A stretch of 45,266 nucleotides of DNA, taken from the NCBI RefSeq assembly GCF_023715895.1, contig NZ_JAMBOO010000032.1, positions 1 through 45,266 on the forward strand. Reading direction: 5' to 3'. Position numbers and translations under genes: made by a program. This stretch comes from Domibacillus indicus. GTDB lineage: Bacteria > Bacillota > Bacilli > Bacillales > Domibacillaceae. The notes beneath the pieces are model-generated. The model was not told where the DNA came from. It was given only the letters and a program-made list of their open reading frames with translations, and made no database searches. Below are positions 2,448 through 21,992 of the stretch, in pieces (within the stretch, counting starts at the first letter, position 1; each line of letters opens with the position of its first letter).

Positions 2448-3278
2448 ATGTCTAAACACTTTTCGTTAATCCTGGCTATCGTTTCAACCATTTCCGTCTT
2501 GCTTGCAGGCAAGTGGCACTATGACAACAAAATCGAAGTGCAGGGCCAGACAGCTTATGCGGCTTACAAACAGAAAGAGGAGCAAAAAGCGCTGCTTGAT
2601 TCTTTAGATCCTGAATTGAATCCAAGTCAGCCTCTTGTCGATTATCTTCAGTATAAGTCCCTGACACAGGATCAGGTGATAATCTCGCTGCTTGGCAGCA
2701 GCGGAACTGCCGGTATCGGAGCGAGTGGCCCGCAATACACCTGGGGAAACCGTCTCGAAGCACAGCTTCACTCTTTAGGGAAAGATTTTCAAAAAATACA
2801 CATACATACGCATGGATTTCCCGAATACTCCACAGCCCGGTTAGTGAAAGAAGCAAAAGTAAAAAGCGTCATTGGCGACAACCCAGACCTGGTTATTGTT
2901 GAAGCTGCCCTTTTTCAAAATTACGACCAGCATGTATCGATGGACGAAACAAAAGAGAATGTCGAGGCGATCGTTCGTTCTATACAAAAAAACGCACCTG
3001 AAGCCAAAATCCTTCTCACGTCATCTAACCCGATATCAATCGTTTCAGAAGAAAGAACAGAAAATCATGCAGGCTACACCTATAACGATTATACGAGAGA
3101 ACTTACTCGGCTTACGAAGGAGAAAAGGTGGGCTTACGTGAATATCCACAACGAAATGGAGGCTCGTCTGGCTGCTGAGAACAAAAAGCTGTCGACGATT
3201 TTAACGCAAGGCATGTATCCAAATGATAATGGGTACTTGCTATGGTCAGAAACGATATTTGCCCATATGACAAAATAG
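2448..3278 (+). CDS. SGNH/GDSL-hydrolase-like exported protein with a degenerate catalytic His block
   Basis: A 276-residue protein with an N-terminal signal or anchor segment (about 5-21). The SGNH fold is suggested by LLGSSGTAG (block I; nucleophile would be Ser 85), the following PDLVIVEAALFQN strand, ILLTSSNP, and the block-V-like YPNDNGYLLW near the C-terminus. In active GDSL enzymes block V carries a catalytic His (DGxHPN); here the matching position is Tyr (GMYPN), and block III lacks the usual GxND. It may therefore be inactive, use another His, or bind a ligand. GGAAAAGGAGAAG precedes the ATG, and a terminator follows. The promoter resembles that of the c-di-GMP riboswitch transcript near 11.1 kb. 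Confidence 0.7.
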   Translation: MSKHFSLILAIVSTISVLLAGKWHYDNKIEVQGQTAYAAYKQKEEQKALLDSLDPELNPSQPLVDYLQYKSLTQDQVIISLLGSSGTAGIGASGPQYTWGNRLEAQLHSLGKDFQKIHIHTHGFPEYSTARLVKEAKVKSVIGDNPDLVIVEAALFQNYDQHVSMDETKENVEAIVRSIQKNAPEAKILLTSSNPISIVSEERTENHAGYTYNDYTRELTRLTKEKRWAYVNIHNEMEARLAAENKKLSTILTQGMYPNDNGYLLWSETIFAHMTK

Positions 3279-3350
3279 GTGAGCCGTGCAGAAGGGTGAA
3301 TAAAGGACAAATTTACTGAGGCTTGAATGGGAAAAACTCATAGGAAATAA

Positions 3351-3386
3351 AGCATCTGGAGCATGTTAGTTCCGGGTGTTTTTTTT
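3351..3386 (+). terminator. Rho-independent terminator
   Basis: AGCATCTGGA pairs with TCCGGGTGTT (some G-U pairs) and is followed by eight T residues. Confidence 0.7.
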
Positions 3387-3420
3387 GTATGTAAGAGCTT
3401 ATGTTTAAAAAGTTAGGTTT

Positions 3421-3543
3421 TCATTGAATTAAAAAATAGCCTGGGAAATGCCTGCTGAAGAGAAAAAGAGATTGTTGAAACCATTCTAAGATCTCCTCTG
3501 TAAAATGATAGGGGTAAATTTTATAATTCAATCTTTTGATCAT
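3421..3543 (-). CDS. Possible small protein, 40 residues
   Basis: On the minus strand AAAAAAAGGAGC lies five bases before an ATG at 3543, an excellent ribosome binding site. The product begins MIKRLNYKIYPYHF and is rich in aromatic residues, with an amphipathic or hydrophobic middle (EWFQQSLFLFSRHF). I do not recognise it. It is divergent from the deoR-type gene. The strong Shine-Dalgarno sequence is the main support; conservation is needed to confirm it. Confidence 0.35.
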   Translation of the reverse strand: MIKRLNYKIYPYHFTEEILEWFQQSLFLFSRHFPGYFLIQ

Positions 3544-3574
3544 GATATGCTCCTTTTTTTCGAAATCAGTAACA

Positions 3575-3622
3575 TTTTGATCAAAAAAATACATGTACAA
3601 AGGAGAAACGATCAACTATAAT
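3575..3622 (+). promoter_or_regulatory. Putative promoter and operator of the sugar operon
   Basis: TGTACA (3594-3599) and TATAAT (3617-3622) have 17-base spacing. The perfect palindrome TTTTGATCAAAA (3575-3586) lies just upstream of the -35 and is a candidate operator for the adjacent DeoR-type regulator or another protein. Confidence 0.5.
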
Positions 3623-3678
3623 AAAAAAAAGTAAAAAACGAATCAATATTCTGAAAATTTAATCGTAGGTGAGCGACT

Positions 3679-4467
3679 ATGATCACAAAGCAAAGACATA
3701 ACCTGATGCTTGAAATGATCAGGGACAAAAAAACCGTCAGTATTTCACAGCTGGCAAAGGAGCTGGGCATCTCTAATGTAACGGCCCGGCGCGATGTCGA
3801 GTTTCTGGAAAAGCAGTCCAAGAACGTGATTCGAATCAGGGGAGGAGCTGAATGGAAAGCGGACCTGCCGGATTATTCAACAAAGGATTTGAACGATCGT
3901 TTTCAGCAGCAATACGAAAAAAACAGGCTTGAAAAGCAGCAAATTGCCCGGAAAGCGTCATCTCTTATCGAACAAAATGAAAGCGTTATCATCGATGCAG
4001 GATCGACCACCTTTCATCTCGCTCAAAGCCTCGATTCGCAAAAAAGAATCACCGCTTTTTTAACGGCAGTGAATATTGCCGAGGCGCTTGAAGAAAAAGA
4101 GAACATTACAAAGGTATTGATGGGCGGCATATTTCGTTCGCGGACGACAACGATTGTCAGCTCCGTTTTAAAAGACAGCTTGAGCACCTTGTATGCGGAT
4201 AAAGTATTTATCGGTGTATCAGGCGTGTCGCTGGAAAAAGGCTTTACGTGCCATGATTTATTAGAAGTAGAGGTAAAGAGAATGCTTGCCCGCTCTGCTC
4301 GGGAAGTCTACTGGCTGGCGGATTCTTCAAAAATAAATACGATTGCCTCATTTCAGGTTCTAGACTTGGAATCTCATCATACCATTATTACGGATGACAA
4401 GATTGAGTCTTCTATTCTCGAACAATTGCGGCAAAGAGTGAATGTGATGATTGCAGAAAGGAGGTGA
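3679..4467 (+). CDS. DeoR/GlpR-family transcriptional regulator
   Basis: A 262-residue regulator. The N-terminal winged helix (about residues 5-58) contains VSISQLAKELGISNVTARRD followed by IRIRGGAEW, the classic DeoR signature. The C-terminal sugar-phosphate sensor domain (about 75-250) has DAGSTTFHLA (107-116) and a later LADSSK element, as in GlpR, FruR and DeoR. Such proteins usually repress sugar operons until a phosphorylated intermediate binds. It is the first gene of a same-strand group with a phosphofructokinase-family enzyme and a sugar ABC importer, so those are its likely targets. The ribosome binding site AGGTGAG precedes the ATG; the next gene begins four bases after the stop. 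Confidence 0.9.
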   Translation: MITKQRHNLMLEMIRDKKTVSISQLAKELGISNVTARRDVEFLEKQSKNVIRIRGGAEWKADLPDYSTKDLNDRFQQQYEKNRLEKQQIARKASSLIEQNESVIIDAGSTTFHLAQSLDSQKRITAFLTAVNIAEALEEKENITKVLMGGIFRSRTTTIVSSVLKDSLSTLYADKVFIGVSGVSLEKGFTCHDLLEVEVKRMLARSAREVYWLADSSKINTIASFQVLDLESHHTIITDDKIESSILEQLRQRVNVMIAERR

Positions 4468-9146: not shown

Positions 9147-9396
9147 TAAAAGCACGCTACAGAACAAAAGGCTGAAAGGTGCTTCTGCTTGCAGAGGAAA
9201 GGGAGAAATGAGGGCCTCAGAAAACTGGATCAGCAGTGGGAAAGGGATGTAACTAAAGTTATCACATTTTGTATGTATTTGACTGGTTTATTTACTTTTT
9301 TTGTTCGTTAACTATGATAAAAGTACTATATTTCCGTATACTTTTAAACATGTACAATTAATACATTTTTCATTCAAAGAAAGTAGAGGGATAGCG
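9147..9396 (+). other. Long leader between predicted SinR operator and first rok gene
   Basis: About 245 bases. AAGCAC (near 9150) can pair with GGTGCTT (near 9178), giving a loose stem. A 14-codon frame MRASENWISSGKGM (9208-9252) follows a purine-rich AGAGGAAAGGGAG; it could be a leader peptide or chance. A second promoter nearer the gene is possible. Confidence 0.25.
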
Positions 9397-9801
9397 ATGA
9401 AAGCAGTGTTTGGAGAACGGGAAGCGATTCAGAATCGGCTTCATCAAATTGACCAAACAGAAAGGGAGATTAGACGCCATTTTGACCAGGAACGAAAGCA
9501 ATTGGAACTCAGGCTGGCGATGATGGAGCTGCCGAATGCCAGAAAGAGAGCCGGCAGTGTAAAAGAACGGCGGCGGTCAGCGTATGTAGAATATTTGCAG
9601 GAAGTGATTGTGGCGTATTTAAAAGAGGAAAAGCGTCCTGTCCGCGGCTTTGCGGTTCAGCAGTTTGTGAAGGATCAGACCGGCCACCATATTGGCAATA
9701 TGAGTGCCTTTATGAATGCGCTGATGCCAAAACATGAAGAAGTCCGCAAGCTCGGGCGCGGTATGTATGTATACGAGAAAAAAGTACTGTCGCACGTGTA
9801 A
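9397..9801 (+). CDS. rok: Rok-like nucleoid-associated transcriptional repressor, short form (paralog 1)
   Basis: A 134-residue protein resembling Bacillus subtilis Rok at both ends. The N-terminal coiled-coil FGEREAIQNRLHQIDQ...ERKQLELRL (about 5-45) matches Rok's oligomerisation region (FNEREALRLRLEQLNE). The C-terminal winged-helix-like domain has YLKEEKRPVRGFAVQQFV, IGNMSAFMNALM and KLGRGMYVYE (about 74-127), equivalent to Rok's IPNMTTFMQSLI and RGQYILE. Rok silences AT-rich, often foreign, DNA and represses comK. This version lacks most of the long neutral linker of the 191-residue B. subtilis protein, as in plasmid-borne sRok. The ATG at 9397 has TAGAGGGAT upstream. A paralog follows about 200 bases later. 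Confidence 0.75.
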   Translation: MKAVFGEREAIQNRLHQIDQTEREIRRHFDQERKQLELRLAMMELPNARKRAGSVKERRRSAYVEYLQEVIVAYLKEEKRPVRGFAVQQFVKDQTGHHIGNMSAFMNALMPKHEEVRKLGRGMYVYEKKVLSHV

Positions 9802-9998: not shown

Positions 9999-10391
9999 TT
10001 GAGAGGAAGATTTACTGAACAACAAGCAATTAAAACGAGATTAAGCCAAATTGGTCAAGCGGAAGCACAGATGCTGGAAGCACTCGAGGAAGAGCGGGAC
10101 CTGCTTTTAAAAAGACTGCACGAGCTGGAAAACGGTGAAGGCAGGGAGAAGGAGCATGCCGTAAGCCGCCGCCCGAGAGAAAATGTACATGAGCTGCGCG
10201 AGGTGACCGTTGCCTATTTAAAAGAACGAAAGGAACCGGTTCGTGCAGTTGAAATTCAAGAGTTTGTCGAACAAGCAACCGGAAAGCGCATTTCAAACAT
10301 GAGTTCCTTTATGAAAGTATTAGAGCCCGAGTATGACCGTGTTGTACGGCTGGGCCGCGGCTTATATATTTATGAGTATGGAGTAAAATAA
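9999..10391 (+). CDS. rok: Rok-like nucleoid-associated transcriptional repressor, short form (paralog 2)
   Basis: A 130-residue tandem paralog of the preceding gene: FTEQQAIKTRLSQIGQAE (5-22) in the coiled coil, then VAYLKERKEPVRAVEIQEFV, ISNMSSFMKVLEP and RLGRGLYIYE (about 71-126). The linker between the domains is charged and different from paralog 1, while the C-terminal domain is well kept, as expected if both bind DNA. No ATG exists: the start is probably TTG at 9999 (or ATT at 9996), after AGGAGGG at 9979-9985. Such a weak start may keep the level low. A strong bidirectional terminator follows. Confidence 0.75.
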   Translation: MRGRFTEQQAIKTRLSQIGQAEAQMLEALEEERDLLLKRLHELENGEGREKEHAVSRRPRENVHELREVTVAYLKERKEPVRAVEIQEFVEQATGKRISNMSSFMKVLEPEYDRVVRLGRGLYIYEYGVK

Positions 10392-10392
10392 G

Positions 10393-10424
10393 AAAAAGCC
10401 GCCTCTAGATGAGGCGGCTTTTTT
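10393..10424. terminator. Bidirectional terminator
   Basis: AAAAAGCCGCCTC and GAGGCGGCTTTTT form a perfect stem with A and T runs on both sides. It serves the rok pair and the convergent kinase remnant. Confidence 0.9.
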
Positions 10425-10740
10425 CGTGCTGGGCATCCAGCGGAATCGAGATCGTGACATGGGTGCCATGGTCCAGCTGGCTTTTCACTCCAATAGCCCA
10501 GCTGTGCTGCTGCATGATTTTGAAAGTAAGCATCAGCTCGAGGCCGATACCTTTTTCTTTATTGGAATAAAACGGCTCGCCAAGCTTTGGAAGCCGCTCT
10601 TCAGCAATACCTACCCCTTCATCGATCACTTCGATACAAATCGTGCTGTCCTGTTTTTTTAAATGAATGGACAGAAGCCCTCCTGCCGGCATTGACCCAA
10701 TTCCGTTATGAAGAGTGTTAAACAGCGCTTTTTTAATAAC
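10405..10740 (-). pseudogene. Decayed sporulation-type sensor histidine kinase, ATPase-domain remnant
   Basis: Minus-strand translation shows only the C-terminal ATP-binding part of a histidine kinase: N box ALFNTLHNGIGSMPAGG, G1 box DEGVGI, then LGEPFYSNKEKGIGLELM and a final GTHVTISIPL. The pattern matches sporulation-kinase-like enzymes (KinA/KinE type: GEPFYTTKEKGTGLGL). No dimerisation domain with a phospho-acceptor His is found upstream. The frame meets a stop at 10756-10758, and the sequence beyond is AT-rich and unrelated. The G2 box is altered (GIGLEL instead of GTGLGL) and the N-box Glu is Gly, showing decay. ATG at 10692 could start a 95-residue protein, but it would begin inside the domain. 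Truncated pseudogene. Confidence 0.75.
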
Positions 10741-11083: not shown

Positions 11084-11135
11084 GGAATTTGTCGAACGAA
11101 TATACCTATATTATCAGGGTTTTTTGCTTTATAAT
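11084..11135 (+). promoter_or_regulatory. Putative Spo0A-box promoter of the first c-di-GMP riboswitch transcript
   Basis: GGAATTTGTCGAACGAATA (11084-11102) is identical to 2362-2380. Its TTTGTCGAAC box starts 42 bases before TATAAT (11130-11135); the other copy has 41. There is no good -35 hexamer. Confidence 0.5.
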
Positions 11136-11154
11136 AAAGACACCACGAACATTG

Positions 11155-11236
11155 TGCGAAAGGGCAAAATCGCTGAAAAGCGATGACGCAAAACTATAGG
11201 GGCTAAAGGGAATCCATGCCAGCCAGTTGTCGAATA
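11155..11236 (+). promoter_or_regulatory. Cyclic-di-GMP-I (GEMM-I) riboswitch
   Basis: Conserved GEMM-I blocks occur in order: AGGGCAAAA, a short hairpin TCGCTGAAAAGCGA whose GAAA loop is the tetraloop of P2, GACGCAAAACTATAGGGGC, CTAAAGGG, then ATGCCAGCCAGTTG. It lies about 37 bases before the start of a 42-residue ORF. No long terminator lies between aptamer and ORF, so control is more likely at translation. Direction of control is not evident. Binding of c-di-GMP is known for the class, not tested here. Confidence 0.88.
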
Positions 11237-11272
11237 CGGTCTCGGACACTCATCTAAAGGAGGGCATCTATT

Positions 11273-11401
11273 ATGCCGTTATACAGTATGAAGGAGATCT
11301 GGACGCCGCTAAAATGGGTAGGCATCAAATTCTTTAAAACACTGGATGAAGGAAGCTTCTATATGAAGGTCGGAAGCCGTCCAAGAAAAAGAATCAACTA
11401 A
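11273..11401 (+). CDS. c-di-GMP-riboswitch-controlled small basic protein, 42 residues
   Basis: ATG at 11273 is preceded by AAAGGAGGG with eight-base spacing. The product starts MPLYSMKEIWTPLKW, continues with VGIKFFKTLDEGSFYMKVG and ends SRPRKRIN. It has three aromatic/hydrophobic clusters, no clear membrane helix and a strongly basic tail. I know no family for it. Its position directly behind a c-di-GMP-I aptamer makes it the probable regulated product. It is convergent with a chemoreceptor gene and shares its terminator. An RNA-, phosphate- or protein-binding role would be a guess. The excellent ribosome binding site and riboswitch context are the main support. Confidence 0.7.
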   Translation: MPLYSMKEIWTPLKWVGIKFFKTLDEGSFYMKVGSRPRKRIN

Positions 11402-11476
11402 CCGGCAGGCGTTGACGGCTAAGAGAGTTAGTTAGCCACGAAAACGTAGAATGGGTCATGAAAACAAGAAAATGGT

Positions 11477-11516
11477 CAAGAAAAAACCGCCCCGGCATAC
11501 AGGGCGGTTTTTCTTG
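11477..11516. terminator. Bidirectional terminator
   Basis: CAAGAAAAAACCGCCC pairs with GGGCGGTTTTTCTTG; it ends both the small-protein transcript and the convergent chemoreceptor gene. Confidence 0.9.
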
Positions 11517-13571
11517 TTACACTTTAAAGGTACTCGTTAGAGCTTGCAGCTCTTCGGCCATGGAAGCAAGGGATGCGGAAGACGATGAAATCTCCTGCAT
11601 CGCGGCCATTTGGTCTTCAGTTGAAGAAGAGACCTGCTGGGTGCTGGCGGCCGTTTCATGCGAATGGGAGGTTACCAGGCGAATGACTTCTTGAACCTGC
11701 TCGGTGCCCGACTGAAGCTGTTTCACAGAGGCGGAGACCGCTTCGATATGGTCCGATACTTCCCGGGCCGCTGTGTGAATGCTTTGAAAAGACTCACCGG
11801 AATGATGAACGGATTCGATGCCTGCCGCGACTTCGCCGATCACTCGTTTCATCGATTGAACCGAGCGGGTGATCTCAGACTGGGTAGCGGCAATCAGCCC
11901 ATTGATCCGGGCAGCCGATTCGGATGACTGCTCGGCTAACGTCCGCACTTCTTCGGCGACAACCGCGAAGCCTTTGCCGTGCTCGCCGGCCCGGGCCGCT
12001 TCAATCGCTGCATTTAGTGCTAGCATGTTCGTCTGGCCGGCAATGGTTGTAATAACCTCTGTGAACGTGCCAATTTCCCGTGAGCGCCTGCCGAGCTCTT
12101 CAATCACAGAAGCCGTTTCATGTACGGTTTCCTGGATCGTATTCATCTGGGTAACCGCTGTTTGAATCGACATGCTTCCTTCTTCAGACTTAGCCAGGGA
12201 CTCGCCGGCGCTCAGCAGCATTTGTCCGGAGCGTTCGGCGATTTTCCCTACGCCGGCTGACATGTCTTTAACTGTCCGCGACATATCCTCAACGCTTTGC
12301 CGCTGCTCATCGGCAGTTGCTGCTACACTCGCAACTGTTGAGAAAATTTGTTCAGACGCGCTACTCATTTCCTCGGCGTTTGCCGTCAGCTCCTCGGAGG
12401 AAGCCGCTACTTGCTCGGTATGTGTAGAGATCTGGGTAATCACATGGCGCAGCTGCCCGGTCATTTTGCTGAATGCAGCGGACAGGCGCCCGATTTCATC
12501 CTCACTGTACAGAACCGTGCCTTTTGTCCGTAAATCTCCTGCGGCAATTCTTTCAGATTGATCCGCCATATCGCGGAGCGGCTGTAACGTCCGTTTCACG
12601 AGCCAGATGAAAACGGCAGAAAACAGTGAAGCAACTAAAAGAGTGCTGACGATCGATTGAACAATATTATCCCTCAGCGACTGCTCGACTTCACTGAGCG
12701 TTTTTTGGGCTATAGAAGCATTGGCGAAATAAGGAACGGTATCGATTTGTGCAGACAGCACGTAAACGGCTTTTCCATTTTTCATCACAGGATAAAAAAT
12801 ATCCGCTTTTTGCTGGTTCACATGCATCTGCGGCTTTCCGCTTTTCAGCACGGCTCCAATATTGTCGTTTTGGATGATGTCTCCTTGTTTCCAAAGCGGT
12901 TTTTCCCCCTCTGCCGTATTTCCTGTTAAAACAAGCCCGTCCGGACTGAGCATGTAAATGCCTTTTATCCCATTTCCTTTATGAATATAGGTTTTTAAGG
13001 ATGACTCAAAAATATCGGCATTCATTGCGGCTTCGAGTACGCCACGTCCATCCGCTCTTGGAACAATCATAAACTTAAAGATTTCCATTGTTTCTTGCTT
13101 TAAAATAAGCGGCTCCGCAATAACCGGCGTTTTTCCGTCGAGAACCGAGCGGTAGGCTTCGTTAAACGAAAATAAATTCAGCCCGAGTGAAGCTTCCTCC
13201 GTAGATTGCGTAAACACGCCCTGCCGGTTCGCCAGGTAAAGATCCGTCATGCCGGTTTGTTTGGCTATTGCTTCAAGATCCGCGTTTGTCAGCTGGCGTG
13301 CAGTATCTATCTGCTGAAGGGTATAGGCCGCGTTTAACATCGTTTTATCCACCTGTTCTTCAAGCGAGACAAGATGGTTTGAAATATTGGCCGTTAATTC
13401 GGTCAGTTCTTCTTCAACACTTTTTTGGGCGTTTTCATTCATGTGTACAGCGGCGGCATTCATTTCTTTTTTCAAGGACCGGGATTCGATCCATTGAAGG
13501 AAACTGGAACACGCGAGAAGTAAAACAATCAGCACAACAAGCAAACTAATAATCTTTCTTTGAATGGACAA
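11517..13571 (-). CDS. Methyl-accepting chemotaxis protein
   Basis: A 684-residue transmembrane chemoreceptor. Order: membrane segment (about 7-22), extracellular sensor of about 270 residues with Cache-like features ([20 protein letters not shown]), second membrane segment (about 299-318), HAMP ([20 protein letters not shown]), then the coiled-coil signalling domain. The hairpin tip is intact with [20 protein letters not shown] followed by [15 protein letters not shown]. It would signal through CheW/CheA to flagella; the ligand is unknown. The start is TTG at 13571 with AGAAGG eight bases upstream. A SigmaD-like promoter lies upstream, in keeping with flagellar-regulon control. Confidence 0.93.
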
Positions 13572-19574: not shown

Positions 19575-19678
19575 GGCAGTTAGACTGCTTTAATTTGAAA
19601 AGGCAAATCTGTAGAAATGCAGAGACGCAAAGCTATAGGGGCTAAGCCGTTTTGGTATGCCAGCCAGCTGCCAGGGAG
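19575..19678 (+). promoter_or_regulatory. Cyclic-di-GMP-I (GEMM-I) riboswitch controlling the subtilisin-like protease
   Basis: Core blocks AGGCAAATCTG, a GTAGAAATGC hairpin loop, GAGACGCAAAGCTATAGGGG, CTAAGCC and GGTATGCCAGCCAGCTGCC are near consensus. GGCAG (19575-19579) can pair with CTGCC (19668-19672) to close the aptamer or alternatively with nearby CTGCTT. The ribosome binding site GGGAGG begins one base after CTGCC-A, so ligand-dependent folding could control its access. Translational control is inferred. Confidence 0.92.
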
Positions 19679-19688
19679 GAAATTCATC

Positions 19689-21581
19689 ATGAAGAAAGCT
19701 GCAGCTAGTTTGTTAGCCACTGGGTTGCTTGTTGCTTCTTTTGGTCCTAATGCTGCGTTTGCGGCGCAGGAAGAGGAACAAAATGTCATTGTCATTTTTG
19801 ATGAGAAAGTAGATAAAAAGGCGATTGCACAGGCGGAAGGGGAAATTGACCAGACGTTTAAGCAGCTGCCGATCGCTTCTGTGACACTTCCAGCAGATGA
19901 AGTGAAAGAGCTGAAGCAAGATAAAGATGTGGTCCGTGTAGAAAAAGATATTACCGTTCACGCATCAGCCGACACACTGGATTGGGGTATTGGCGCCACC
20001 AATGTACCGGTTTCCTGGAATGCAGGGTTTACGGGCAGGGGTGTAAAAATAGCTGTTGTAGATACAGGAGTGGCCGCACATTCGGATTTAGCAATTGCAG
20101 GCGGGGCATCTTTTGTTTCATATACAACGTCCTATCAGGATGATAACGGGCACGGCACACACGTAGCCGGCATTATTGGAGCTGAGAACAACGGCTTTGG
20201 CACAAAAGGGGTTGCACCGGATGCAGATGTGTATGCGGTTAAATCATTAGAAAAAAGCGGTTCAGGCAGTTTGTCGAGCATTTTAGCCGGCATTGACTGG
20301 GCCATTACAAATAAAATGGATATTATCAACTTAAGTCTTGGCACGCAAACTAATTCGGCCGCTTTCCAGGCACTGGTCGATAAAGCATATGCGAGCGGCA
20401 TTTTGGTCGTAGCAGCGGCAGGAAATGATGGATCGGTTTCTGGAACAGATGACACCGTTGATTATCCGGCACGTTATGACTCGGCGATTGCTGTTGGCGC
20501 TGTAGACTCTTCTTTGAAACGTGCGTCCTTTTCTTCCACTGGAAGCACGGTTGAAATTGCTGCGCCGGGACAAAGCATTGTTTCTACTTATCTGAATAAC
20601 GGATATGCGCGCATGAGCGGTACATCGATGGCCGCACCGTACGTATCCGGTGAGCTTGCGCTGTTAAAGCAGGCAAATCCGACATCCGATGCAGTGCGCC
20701 TTCGGGCGATTTTAAAAGATACAAGCAAGGATTTGGGCACAGCGGGAAGAGATCCGTGGTTTGGCTATGGATTAATGCAGGCGCCAGCGAGTGCCGCCGC
20801 GCAAACCGTTCAATCCGCTCCAGCTGTAAGCCCGACAGTTTCCAGCCTCACAGTCAGTACTACTTCGGTTTCAGCGCTGCCAGGTGAAACAAAAGCAGTT
20901 ACGCTTACAGCTTCTTATACGGATGGGGCGAAAGCGGACCGTACAAAAGAGGCCGAGTGGACATCAAGCAATCCAGCTGTCGCCACCGTTGAAGGCGGCG
21001 TTATTACGGTCCGCCAGTTCGGTAAAGCAGTGATCAGTTCAACGGACGGCGGTAAAACGGCAAAGGTATCCGTTGATGCGACGGTACGGTCTCTTACAGC
21101 CAGCACAACGCTTATTGCAGGAAAGCCTCAGGACACAAAAGCGGTTCGGTTAACGGCTATACGTGCAGATGGAAGCAAAGTGGATATTACGGAAGCGGCG
21201 CAGTGGAAAACGGCTAATAGTAAAGTAGCGACCGTTAACCGTGGAATCATCACGATTCAAAACTATGGCAAAACAACCGTTTCCGGACTATACGGAGGCA
21301 AAACGGTGAATATCACGGTAGACGCCAGCGTGCGCAGCTTAAGTGTCAGCACAAAACGTGTAGCCGGAAAACCGGGAACGGTGCAAAAAGTAGCCGTTAC
21401 GGCTCTTCTGTCCAGCGGGCAGCGTGTAGATGTAACGCCGCTTGTTACATGGAAGGTACTGAATCAAAAAGTTGCAAACGTATCAGGCGGAGTGGTTTCC
21501 ATTTCGCAGTATGGCAGAACGTATGCCGCGCCCGTTTTTATGGGGAAAACGGTGAATATTTTAATTGAAAGCAAAAAATAA
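19689..21581 (+). CDS. Secreted subtilisin-family serine protease with Big2-like C-terminal repeats
   Basis: A 630-residue S8 protease. Signal peptide about 1-26 (AFA-AQ), inhibitor I9 propeptide about 31-92, catalytic domain about 95-385. Catalytic residues: Asp 125 (VVDTG), His 155 (NGHGTHVAG), Ser 313 (SGTSMAAP), oxyanion Asn 246 (AAGN). Three related Ig-like repeats follow (about 400-475, 478-553, 556-630), each with the WxxxNxxVA-type core (WTSSNPAVATV, WKTANSKVATV, WKVLNQKVANV), probably for wall or substrate contact. The ATG at 19689 follows GGGAGG; longer starts run into the riboswitch. High c-di-GMP would alter its synthesis, suggesting a role in release from or remodelling of a matrix. 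Confidence 0.93.
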   Translation: MKKAAASLLATGLLVASFGPNAAFAAQEEEQNVIVIFDEKVDKKAIAQAEGEIDQTFKQLPIASVTLPADEVKELKQDKDVVRVEKDITVHASADTLDWGIGATNVPVSWNAGFTGRGVKIAVVDTGVAAHSDLAIAGGASFVSYTTSYQDDNGHGTHVAGIIGAENNGFGTKGVAPDADVYAVKSLEKSGSGSLSSILAGIDWAITNKMDIINLSLGTQTNSAAFQALVDKAYASGILVVAAAGNDGSVSGTDDTVDYPARYDSAIAVGAVDSSLKRASFSSTGSTVEIAAPGQSIVSTYLNNGYARMSGTSMAAPYVSGELALLKQANPTSDAVRLRAILKDTSKDLGTAGRDPWFGYGLMQAPASAAAQTVQSAPAVSPTVSSLTVSTTSVSALPGETKAVTLTASYTDGAKADRTKEAEWTSSNPAVATVEGGVITVRQFGKAVISSTDGGKTAKVSVDATVRSLTASTTLIAGKPQDTKAVRLTAIRADGSKVDITEAAQWKTANSKVATVNRGIITIQNYGKTTVSGLYGGKTVNITVDASVRSLSVSTKRVAGKPGTVQKVAVTALLSSGQRVDVTPLVTWKVLNQKVANVSGGVVSISQYGRTYAAPVFMGKTVNILIESKK

Positions 21582-21752: not shown

Positions 21753-21787
21753 TGGAAGTGTCAAATAAATATACGCGGATGACGGCT

Positions 21788-21992
21788 GAGGGAGAGTGCA
21801 TACATGCCGCCGACGGAGCAAGTTTCAAAAGCCTTGAAACGAATCTCTCAGGTACAAGGACCTCAATCGGACGCAGCTCTGGAGAGAGCATGGCGCATAG
21901 TCATGCCACCAAAGGGGAAAATCCAGCTTGGATTAAGCTCTCAGGTAAACGGACAGAGAAAAGGATCATACCTTTTCTCTGTCTTTTTTTTG
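21788..21992 (+). promoter_or_regulatory. Tandem glycine riboswitch with terminator
   Basis: Two aptamers are visible: about 21788-21875 (GGGAGAGTGC ... GCCGACGGAGCAAG ... AATCTCTCAGGTACAAGGACC) and about 21878-21952 (CTCTGGAGAGAGC ... CCACCAAAGGGG ... AAGCTCTCAGGTAAACGGACAG). A terminator, ACAGAGAAAAGG/CCTTTTCTCTGT plus T8, lies at 21953-21992. This is the usual Bacillus arrangement ahead of gcvT: glycine binding prevents termination and turns on glycine cleavage. Confidence 0.95.

Follow-up and report, generated by a model that had tools for sequence, protein, structure and literature searches.

Riboswitches for c-di-GMP show the strongest tendency to be classed as antisense-acting, with 152 such cases according to the accessible part of PMC9943018, which also states that only two 3'-located antisense riboswitches had been described earlier. 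In the window analysed here, a stretch of 45,266 nt from Domibacillus indicus (contig NZ_JAMBOO010000032.1), a c-di-GMP-I aptamer resembles that class, as far as the accessible text describes it, in its position on the 3' side of an annotated gene that runs towards it, here a chemoreceptor gene. Unlike members of the class, which have no sense gene of their own, it is separated from the convergent gene by a conserved sense ORF of 42 codons and a terminator at 11484-11510. With the 42-codon gene unannotated, this site could look antisense-acting.

The c-di-GMP-I riboswitch (RF01051, GEMM-I) usually occupies a 5' leader, and the aptamer in the window conforms to the class in being full-length, scoring above the curated threshold and lying in a presumed 5' leader. 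It differs in its output, which is an unnamed family of about 41-residue proteins, and in the arrangement found among relatives, where the aptamer follows the stop codon at some ORF places. The unit also resembles genes of the Spo0A regulon. The heptamer TGTCGAA is given as the core of the Spo0A box in the accessible part of PMC3485338, and this exact core precedes the presumed transcription start in the window by about 50 nt; unlike the sites of that regulon, the box in the window is a predicted site. Text searches, which covered titles and the beginnings of abstracts and left most subscription papers outside their scope, found nothing on the small-protein family, and the accessible part of PMC5670726, on riboswitches of Paenibacillus riograndensis, does not mention it. 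A text search for a 3'-UTR c-di-GMP-I riboswitch likewise found no paper. The gene family, the two aptamer positions and the promoter sequence appear to be new.

A predicted c-di-GMP-responsive transcription unit in Domibacillus indicus

Read from its parts, the interval 11142-11516 on the + strand forms one short transcription unit, and the features on and around it are as follows.

11088..11096, + strand: TTTGTCGAA, which includes TGTCGAA, the core of a Spo0A (0A) box, some 50 nt upstream of where transcription presumably begins (sequence)
11130..11135, + strand: TATAAT, presumed -10 element (sequence)
11153..11234, + strand: c-di-GMP-I (GEMM-I) riboswitch aptamer (Rfam RF01051, 70.5 bits, full length)
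11256..11264, + strand: strong Shine-Dalgarno sequence AAAGGAGGG (sequence)
11273..11401, + strand: 42-codon ORF for a basic small protein of 42 amino acids, pI 10.2, member of a conserved family (homology and sequence)
11484..11510, + strand: hairpin of an intrinsic terminator, with a T-rich run after it (hairpin scan and sequence)
11517..13571, - strand: chemoreceptor gene, convergent with the small ORF (Pfam MCPsignal 4.7e-42, HAMP 1.9e-12)

We infer that transcription starts near 11142, and the transcript, presumed to carry this single gene, would be about 375 nt long and end at the terminator. The proposed unit would run from a Spo0A-box promoter through the c-di-GMP-I aptamer and the 42-codon gene to the terminator. 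The RF01051 model matched the window over all of its positions (1-87 of 87) with 70.5 bits against a gathering score of 35 (E 6.2e-12), and the aptamer ends 38 nt before the ATG on the same strand. All four of our loose patterns for the conserved core are present, and at least one of these same patterns is absent in 6 of the 13 aptamers that lie downstream of the ORF and in 6 of the 14 that lie upstream of it. The aptamer is an ordinary member of RF01051, and its binding of c-di-GMP is predicted on that basis. The initial annotation had placed a c-di-GMP riboswitch before a small protein of no recognised family, and this description stands, with a full-length aptamer match and a conserved family that has no match in Pfam or NCBIfam.

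The genome to which the window belongs contains 20 GEMM-I aptamers. A second c-di-GMP-I aptamer in the window (19592-19675, + strand, 76.1 bits) overlaps the start of an S8 peptidase-like ORF at 19617-21581, the true start codon of which probably lies after the aptamer. Multiple copies occur elsewhere: three tandem c-di-GMP-I aptamers lie within about 520 nt of a genome of the same genus (G011:C44:133830-134350), and tandem pairs are found in Paenibacillus genomes (e.g., G404:C6:305789-306024). The window also contains a tandem glycine riboswitch (21779-21958, + strand, 61.1 and 47.4 bits), two adjacent ORFs with a Rok winged-helix domain (Pfam WH_Rok; 9301-9801 and 9999-10391, + strand) and, adjoining the riboswitch gene, a 95-codon ORF (10405-10692, - strand) with a histidine-kinase ATPase domain as its sole match, which looks like the remnant of a kinase gene.

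The small protein belongs to a conserved family under purifying selection

A sequence search with the window protein gave matches of E<=0.1 in 27 of the 101 relatives. Across 397 genomes of the order, a profile built from 22 members had matches of E<=0.01 in 82, spread over 29 of 135 genera, with a few of the matches fused or partial. In named genomes, 73 loci were identified, from Domibacillus, Rossellomorea, other Bacillaceae, many Paenibacillus and two other Firmicutes metagenome-assembled genomes (L084 and L092). Other Bacillaceae had been named as the place to look for homologues behind GEMM-I aptamers, and the family reaches further, into Paenibacillus and the two other Firmicutes assemblies. 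Between the window and D. robiginosus, 12 of the 16 base differences fall at third codon positions (dN 0.051, dS 0.70, dN/dS 0.07), and across Domibacillus the ratio was 0.04-0.18 in the 5 of 15 pairs with an estimable dS, with dS being saturated in the other 10. The small ORF is under purifying selection and is a real gene. A chance ORF was set aside in view of the homologues in relatives, the profile matches across the order and the third-position bias.

A Shine-Dalgarno core precedes 70 of the 73 named homologues, compared with 223 of 2920 random ATGs, and the start codons are ATG in 60, TTG in 9 and GTG in 4. Among 71 aligned members, M1, Y4, K7, W10, P12 and L13 are invariant and every protein is basic (pI 8.9-11.3), with a family median of 10.1. 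The window protein had no match in Pfam or NCBIfam at E<=1 and none in PHROGs at E<=0.1. An AlphaFold2 model has a strand-helix-strand-strand arrangement (pLDDT 79.9, pTM 0.47). A relative in the PDB was set aside both by sequence, where the best match of the family profile had a non-credible E of 0.72, and by fold, where a Foldseek comparison of the model gave a best E of 2.4 and nothing at E<=0.001. A plasmid-borne family was likewise set aside after one query of 72,556 plasmid records gave no match at E<=0.01. Diverged forms were seen at three loci: a genome of the same genus (L045, G001) carries a copy of the small ORF whose protein has diverged strongly and which nevertheless lies behind an aptamer of 85.4 bits, and two diverged frames of 60-64 codons (L152, L153) with a related KKWTKxWRPLSIIGFKYF stretch possibly represent a sister family.

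Linkage of the aptamer to the small gene

Linkage was counted at 88 of the 94 listed ORF places, the six weakest or partial ones (E 1.9e-5 to 0.006) having been excluded, and about 2.5-10 kb was searched around each place. At 18 places (gaps of 18-40 nt), one of which is weak (L027, 22 bits, E 0.013), a same-strand GEMM-I immediately precedes the ORF, and at 10 places (gaps of 16-35 nt) it immediately follows the stop codon, again on the same strand. It occurs elsewhere nearby at 6 places, and none was found in the stretch searched at 54. The chance expectation of such contacts, assuming 20 aptamers per 4.3 Mb, is 0.016. Among the 73 named loci the aptamer is directly upstream in 13 and directly downstream in 13. 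As the model used for these searches (R1) was built from 20 aptamers that mostly lie near the ORF, their R1 scores are a product of how the model was built; Rfam's own model, independently of R1, places the aptamer at 12 + 5 linked sites besides the window. The linkage of aptamer and ORF is tight and non-random (28 of 88 places), and the ORF that follows the aptamer proved to be conserved, which had been named at the outset as one of the points on which the gene would stand or fall. The small protein is also independent of GEMM-I, as seen from the 54 of 88 places with no aptamer in the stretch searched. In one scan, all 23 ORF-bearing genomes had GEMM-I somewhere in the genome.

In Paenibacillus alkaliterrae, the gene is preceded at 245 nt by a c-di-GMP-II aptamer (RF01786; Rfam, 63.5 bits), in a genome with two c-di-GMP-II matches in 5.6 Mb. 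By our own reckoning, the 17 listed c-di-GMP-II matches taken together would be expected to fall within the 300 nt before an ORF by chance about 0.0004 times. This riboswitch shares its ligand with c-di-GMP-I by family name and differs in being an unrelated aptamer, seen in 1 of the 30 named loci (of 73) that were covered by all-family Rfam scans and in 0 of 25 shorter loci. Because the gene is preceded by RNAs of two unrelated classes that share the name of one ligand, c-di-GMP control appears to be the point of the arrangement.

Aptamers behind the gene

In 13 named loci the order of elements is a TATAAT-like box, the ORF, a gap of 16-32 nt and then the aptamer. Six of these loci are Rossellomorea by name (L078, L093, L097, L099, L101, L112) and the rest are Bacillus sp. 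or [Bacillus] enclensis; in the order-wide set, a single genus code covers 9 of the 10 downstream cases, and the tenth (G052) comes from another family. We read the downstream aptamer, from its position in these loci, as a part of the small gene's 3' UTR. The next gene of at least 100 codons is convergent in 5 of the 13 (L087, L091, L097, L099, L102), and the aptamer there is therefore without an adjoining sense gene of at least 100 codons. In the other eight, the aptamer is followed at 99-476 nt by a gene of that minimum length on its own strand, so that a leader role for that gene is possible at these loci.

The downstream aptamers could accordingly belong to something other than the small gene, acting as leaders of the next gene or, where the gene that follows is convergent, as antisense regulators of it, a reading in keeping with the high share of c-di-GMP riboswitches in the antisense-acting class (PMC9943018, accessible part). 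We consider this unlikely, if still a serious contender, because several observations run against a leader of the next gene. The follower changes in cluster and strand (scanned cluster members include CWB2, histidine kinase, sigma factor and GGDEF proteins) while the distance from ORF to aptamer stays at 16-32 nt. In a seven-locus alignment, L104 and L108 have no aptamer, and even so their sequence immediately ahead of the next gene agrees with that of L101, where this gene belongs to a CWB2 cluster; the best aptamer score in L104 was 3.3 bits, on which account a decayed aptamer was set aside there, and L108 gave no match. In addition, the downstream aptamer is followed by a weak AAACC..GGTTT hairpin and a T-run in 3 of 13 loci by scan and in 7 of 13 by eye. 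Returning to the 3' UTR reading, we tentatively propose a true 3'-UTR riboswitch, in Rossellomorea-type bacilli and one further family, that would control the gene ahead of it through mRNA decay, terminator use or back-pairing with the Shine-Dalgarno sequence. The 5' and 3' positions would then be interchangeable across lineages, and part of the excess of 'antisense-acting' c-di-GMP riboswitches would consist of leaders or 3' tails of unannotated genes for proteins of about 41 amino acids.

Predicted switching and promoter

Binding of c-di-GMP would very probably set the amount of small protein that is made; the direction of the switch is a more even question. In 5 of 14 folded upstream loci (L125, L096, L123, L163, L175), the predicted partner of the Shine-Dalgarno sequence is the last bases of the aptamer. 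Because ligand binding would hold this 3' end in P1, an ON switch is predicted: in the ligand-free state the aptamer 3' end (CCUCC/CCCC) would pair with the Shine-Dalgarno sequence, and c-di-GMP would turn translation on. We give this polarity an even chance at the level of the family, and it is unclear in the window. Forcing P1, at a cost of 2.4 to 11.7 kcal/mol in the folding model, raised Shine-Dalgarno accessibility in 9 of 14 loci, including 4 of the 5 pairing loci. No rise was seen in the remaining 5 of 14, the window included, where accessibility went from 0.49 when free to 0.43, and folding thus found no clear ligand-driven change in the window.

In the 170 nt before the aptamer or ORF, examined with no prior motif, TGTCGA was the top 6-mer, present in 18 of 50 loci compared with 1.85 in shuffles, and the leading 7-mers were TTTGTCG and TGTCGAA; the 50 loci were dereplicated from 74 upstream regions by common 12-mers, and some kinship remains among them. 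Against 230 upstream regions of other ORFs, with the motif having been chosen on the same loci that were tested, TGTCGA was enriched (18 of 50 loci versus 27 of 230, p 1e-4), TGTCGAA more weakly so (10 of 50 versus 16 of 230, p 0.0075), and TTTGTCGAA with one mismatch occurred in 16 of 50 loci versus 38 of 230 (p 0.013). The degenerate form TG(A/C/T)CGA(A/T) was found in 26 of 74 upstream regions versus 14% of background windows. A Spo0A-box variant, TTGTCGATAAGTA, is unchanged in all seven of the aligned loci, and L097, L099 and L102 have TTTGTCTAT in place of the core. The core is present in a minority of loci (18 of 50). Co-occurrence with Spo0A was uninformative as a test, with Spo0A being above the cut-off in 391 of 397 genomes. 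We lean slightly towards Spo0A~P acting at this promoter, which would tie the gene to the biofilm and sporulation decision.

Fusions, neighbours and possible function

In four genomes (L143-L146), the small domain forms the N-terminus of a 265-289-codon frame with one apparent membrane span, as read from the sequence. These fusion ORFs, at about 2980-3830 of their loci (on the - strand in L146), have a Ser-rich stretch and a C-terminal part with no convincing Pfam family. Three of the four (L144, L145, L146) directly follow genes for a Wzz-like chain-length protein and a BY-kinase-type ATPase, an EpsA/EpsB-like pair that was identified by NCBIfam in L144 and L145 (TIGR01007 above and TIGR01006 below the curated cut-off) and by Pfam in L145 and L146. 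In L143, the gene just before the fusion, the only one scanned there, had no Pfam match. A weaker match (L150) places the domain C-terminally in a frame of 117 codons that contains hydrophobic stretches. Because the fused, apparently membrane-anchored form follows EpsA/EpsB-like genes, a role as polysaccharide accessory is suggested, and the protein may, as a tentative proposal, be a soluble cytoplasmic accessory docking onto a membrane complex that synthesises surface polysaccharide. The likeness to EpsA/EpsB-type Wzz and BY-kinase exopolysaccharide systems (TIGR01006/TIGR01007) lies in the fused domain being the next gene in three loci; the small protein of the window differs in having no such neighbour, and its role would follow by analogy.

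Other neighbours, noted as raw occurrences, weigh little, namely the nucleotide-sugar enzymes (epimerase, UDP-sugar dehydrogenase) or glycosyltransferase just upstream in several Paenibacillus loci and the GGDEF cluster, of which one member was scanned, found no more than 5 kb away in 20 of 73 loci. SLH and CWB2 neighbours were discarded as functional evidence for being too abundant, with 108 SLH matches in the window genome and 39-48 CWB2 matches in three Rossellomorea-type genomes; cluster 1 of the neighbouring proteins also chains subtilases together with CWB2 proteins.

Three other accounts of the protein bear on this proposal. The convergent chemoreceptor gene had suggested an effector of motility or attachment, and 4 of 73 loci (L070, L075, L117, L124) have a member of the chemoreceptor cluster (cluster 33, in which the domain scan covered the window's member) as their next gene. 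Such a neighbour was not seen beside the other 69, and the promoter sequence and the context of the fusions, in a polysaccharide operon in 3 of 4 cases, point elsewhere; we therefore regard a motility or chemotaxis effector as improbable and find little support for the original suggestion. That the RNA is what matters, with the ORF as a mere leader peptide or coding decoration of it, would fit an ORF and aptamer that lie tens of bases apart in an order that can flip, and a protein with no recognised fold. It is more improbable still, given that changes fall mostly at third codon positions, that 54 of 88 ORF places have no nearby GEMM-I and that the domain also exists as part of fused frames 265-289 codons long. 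A shade less probable again is a small basic protein that binds c-di-GMP-I RNAs and acts on the many riboswitches of its genome. The high pI (median 10.1), the linkage to the aptamer at either end of the gene and the 20 aptamers of the window genome would suit such a protein. Against it stand a genome (G107) that has the ORF (1e-18) and no GEMM-I match under strict filters, and the fused form, with its apparent membrane anchor and, in 3 of 4 loci, its place in a polysaccharide operon.

Discussion

We consider it probable, at roughly 0.72, that the small basic protein is under the control of a promoter with a Spo0A box and of a c-di-GMP switch and that it possibly serves the surface-polysaccharide or biofilm machinery, with the polarity of the switch and the function of the protein being the inferred parts of this reading. 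The level of the small protein would go up when c-di-GMP and Spo0A~P signal a sessile lifestyle. If functional, an aptamer placed after its gene would add a new mode of action to those of bacterial riboswitches, and tiny genes missing from annotation are a possible reason for the frequent 'antisense' look of c-di-GMP riboswitches. The promoter sequence suggests a link of the small gene to the Spo0A decision, and the family adds a widespread, conserved and apparently unnamed group of small proteins to the c-di-GMP network of Gram-positive bacilli.
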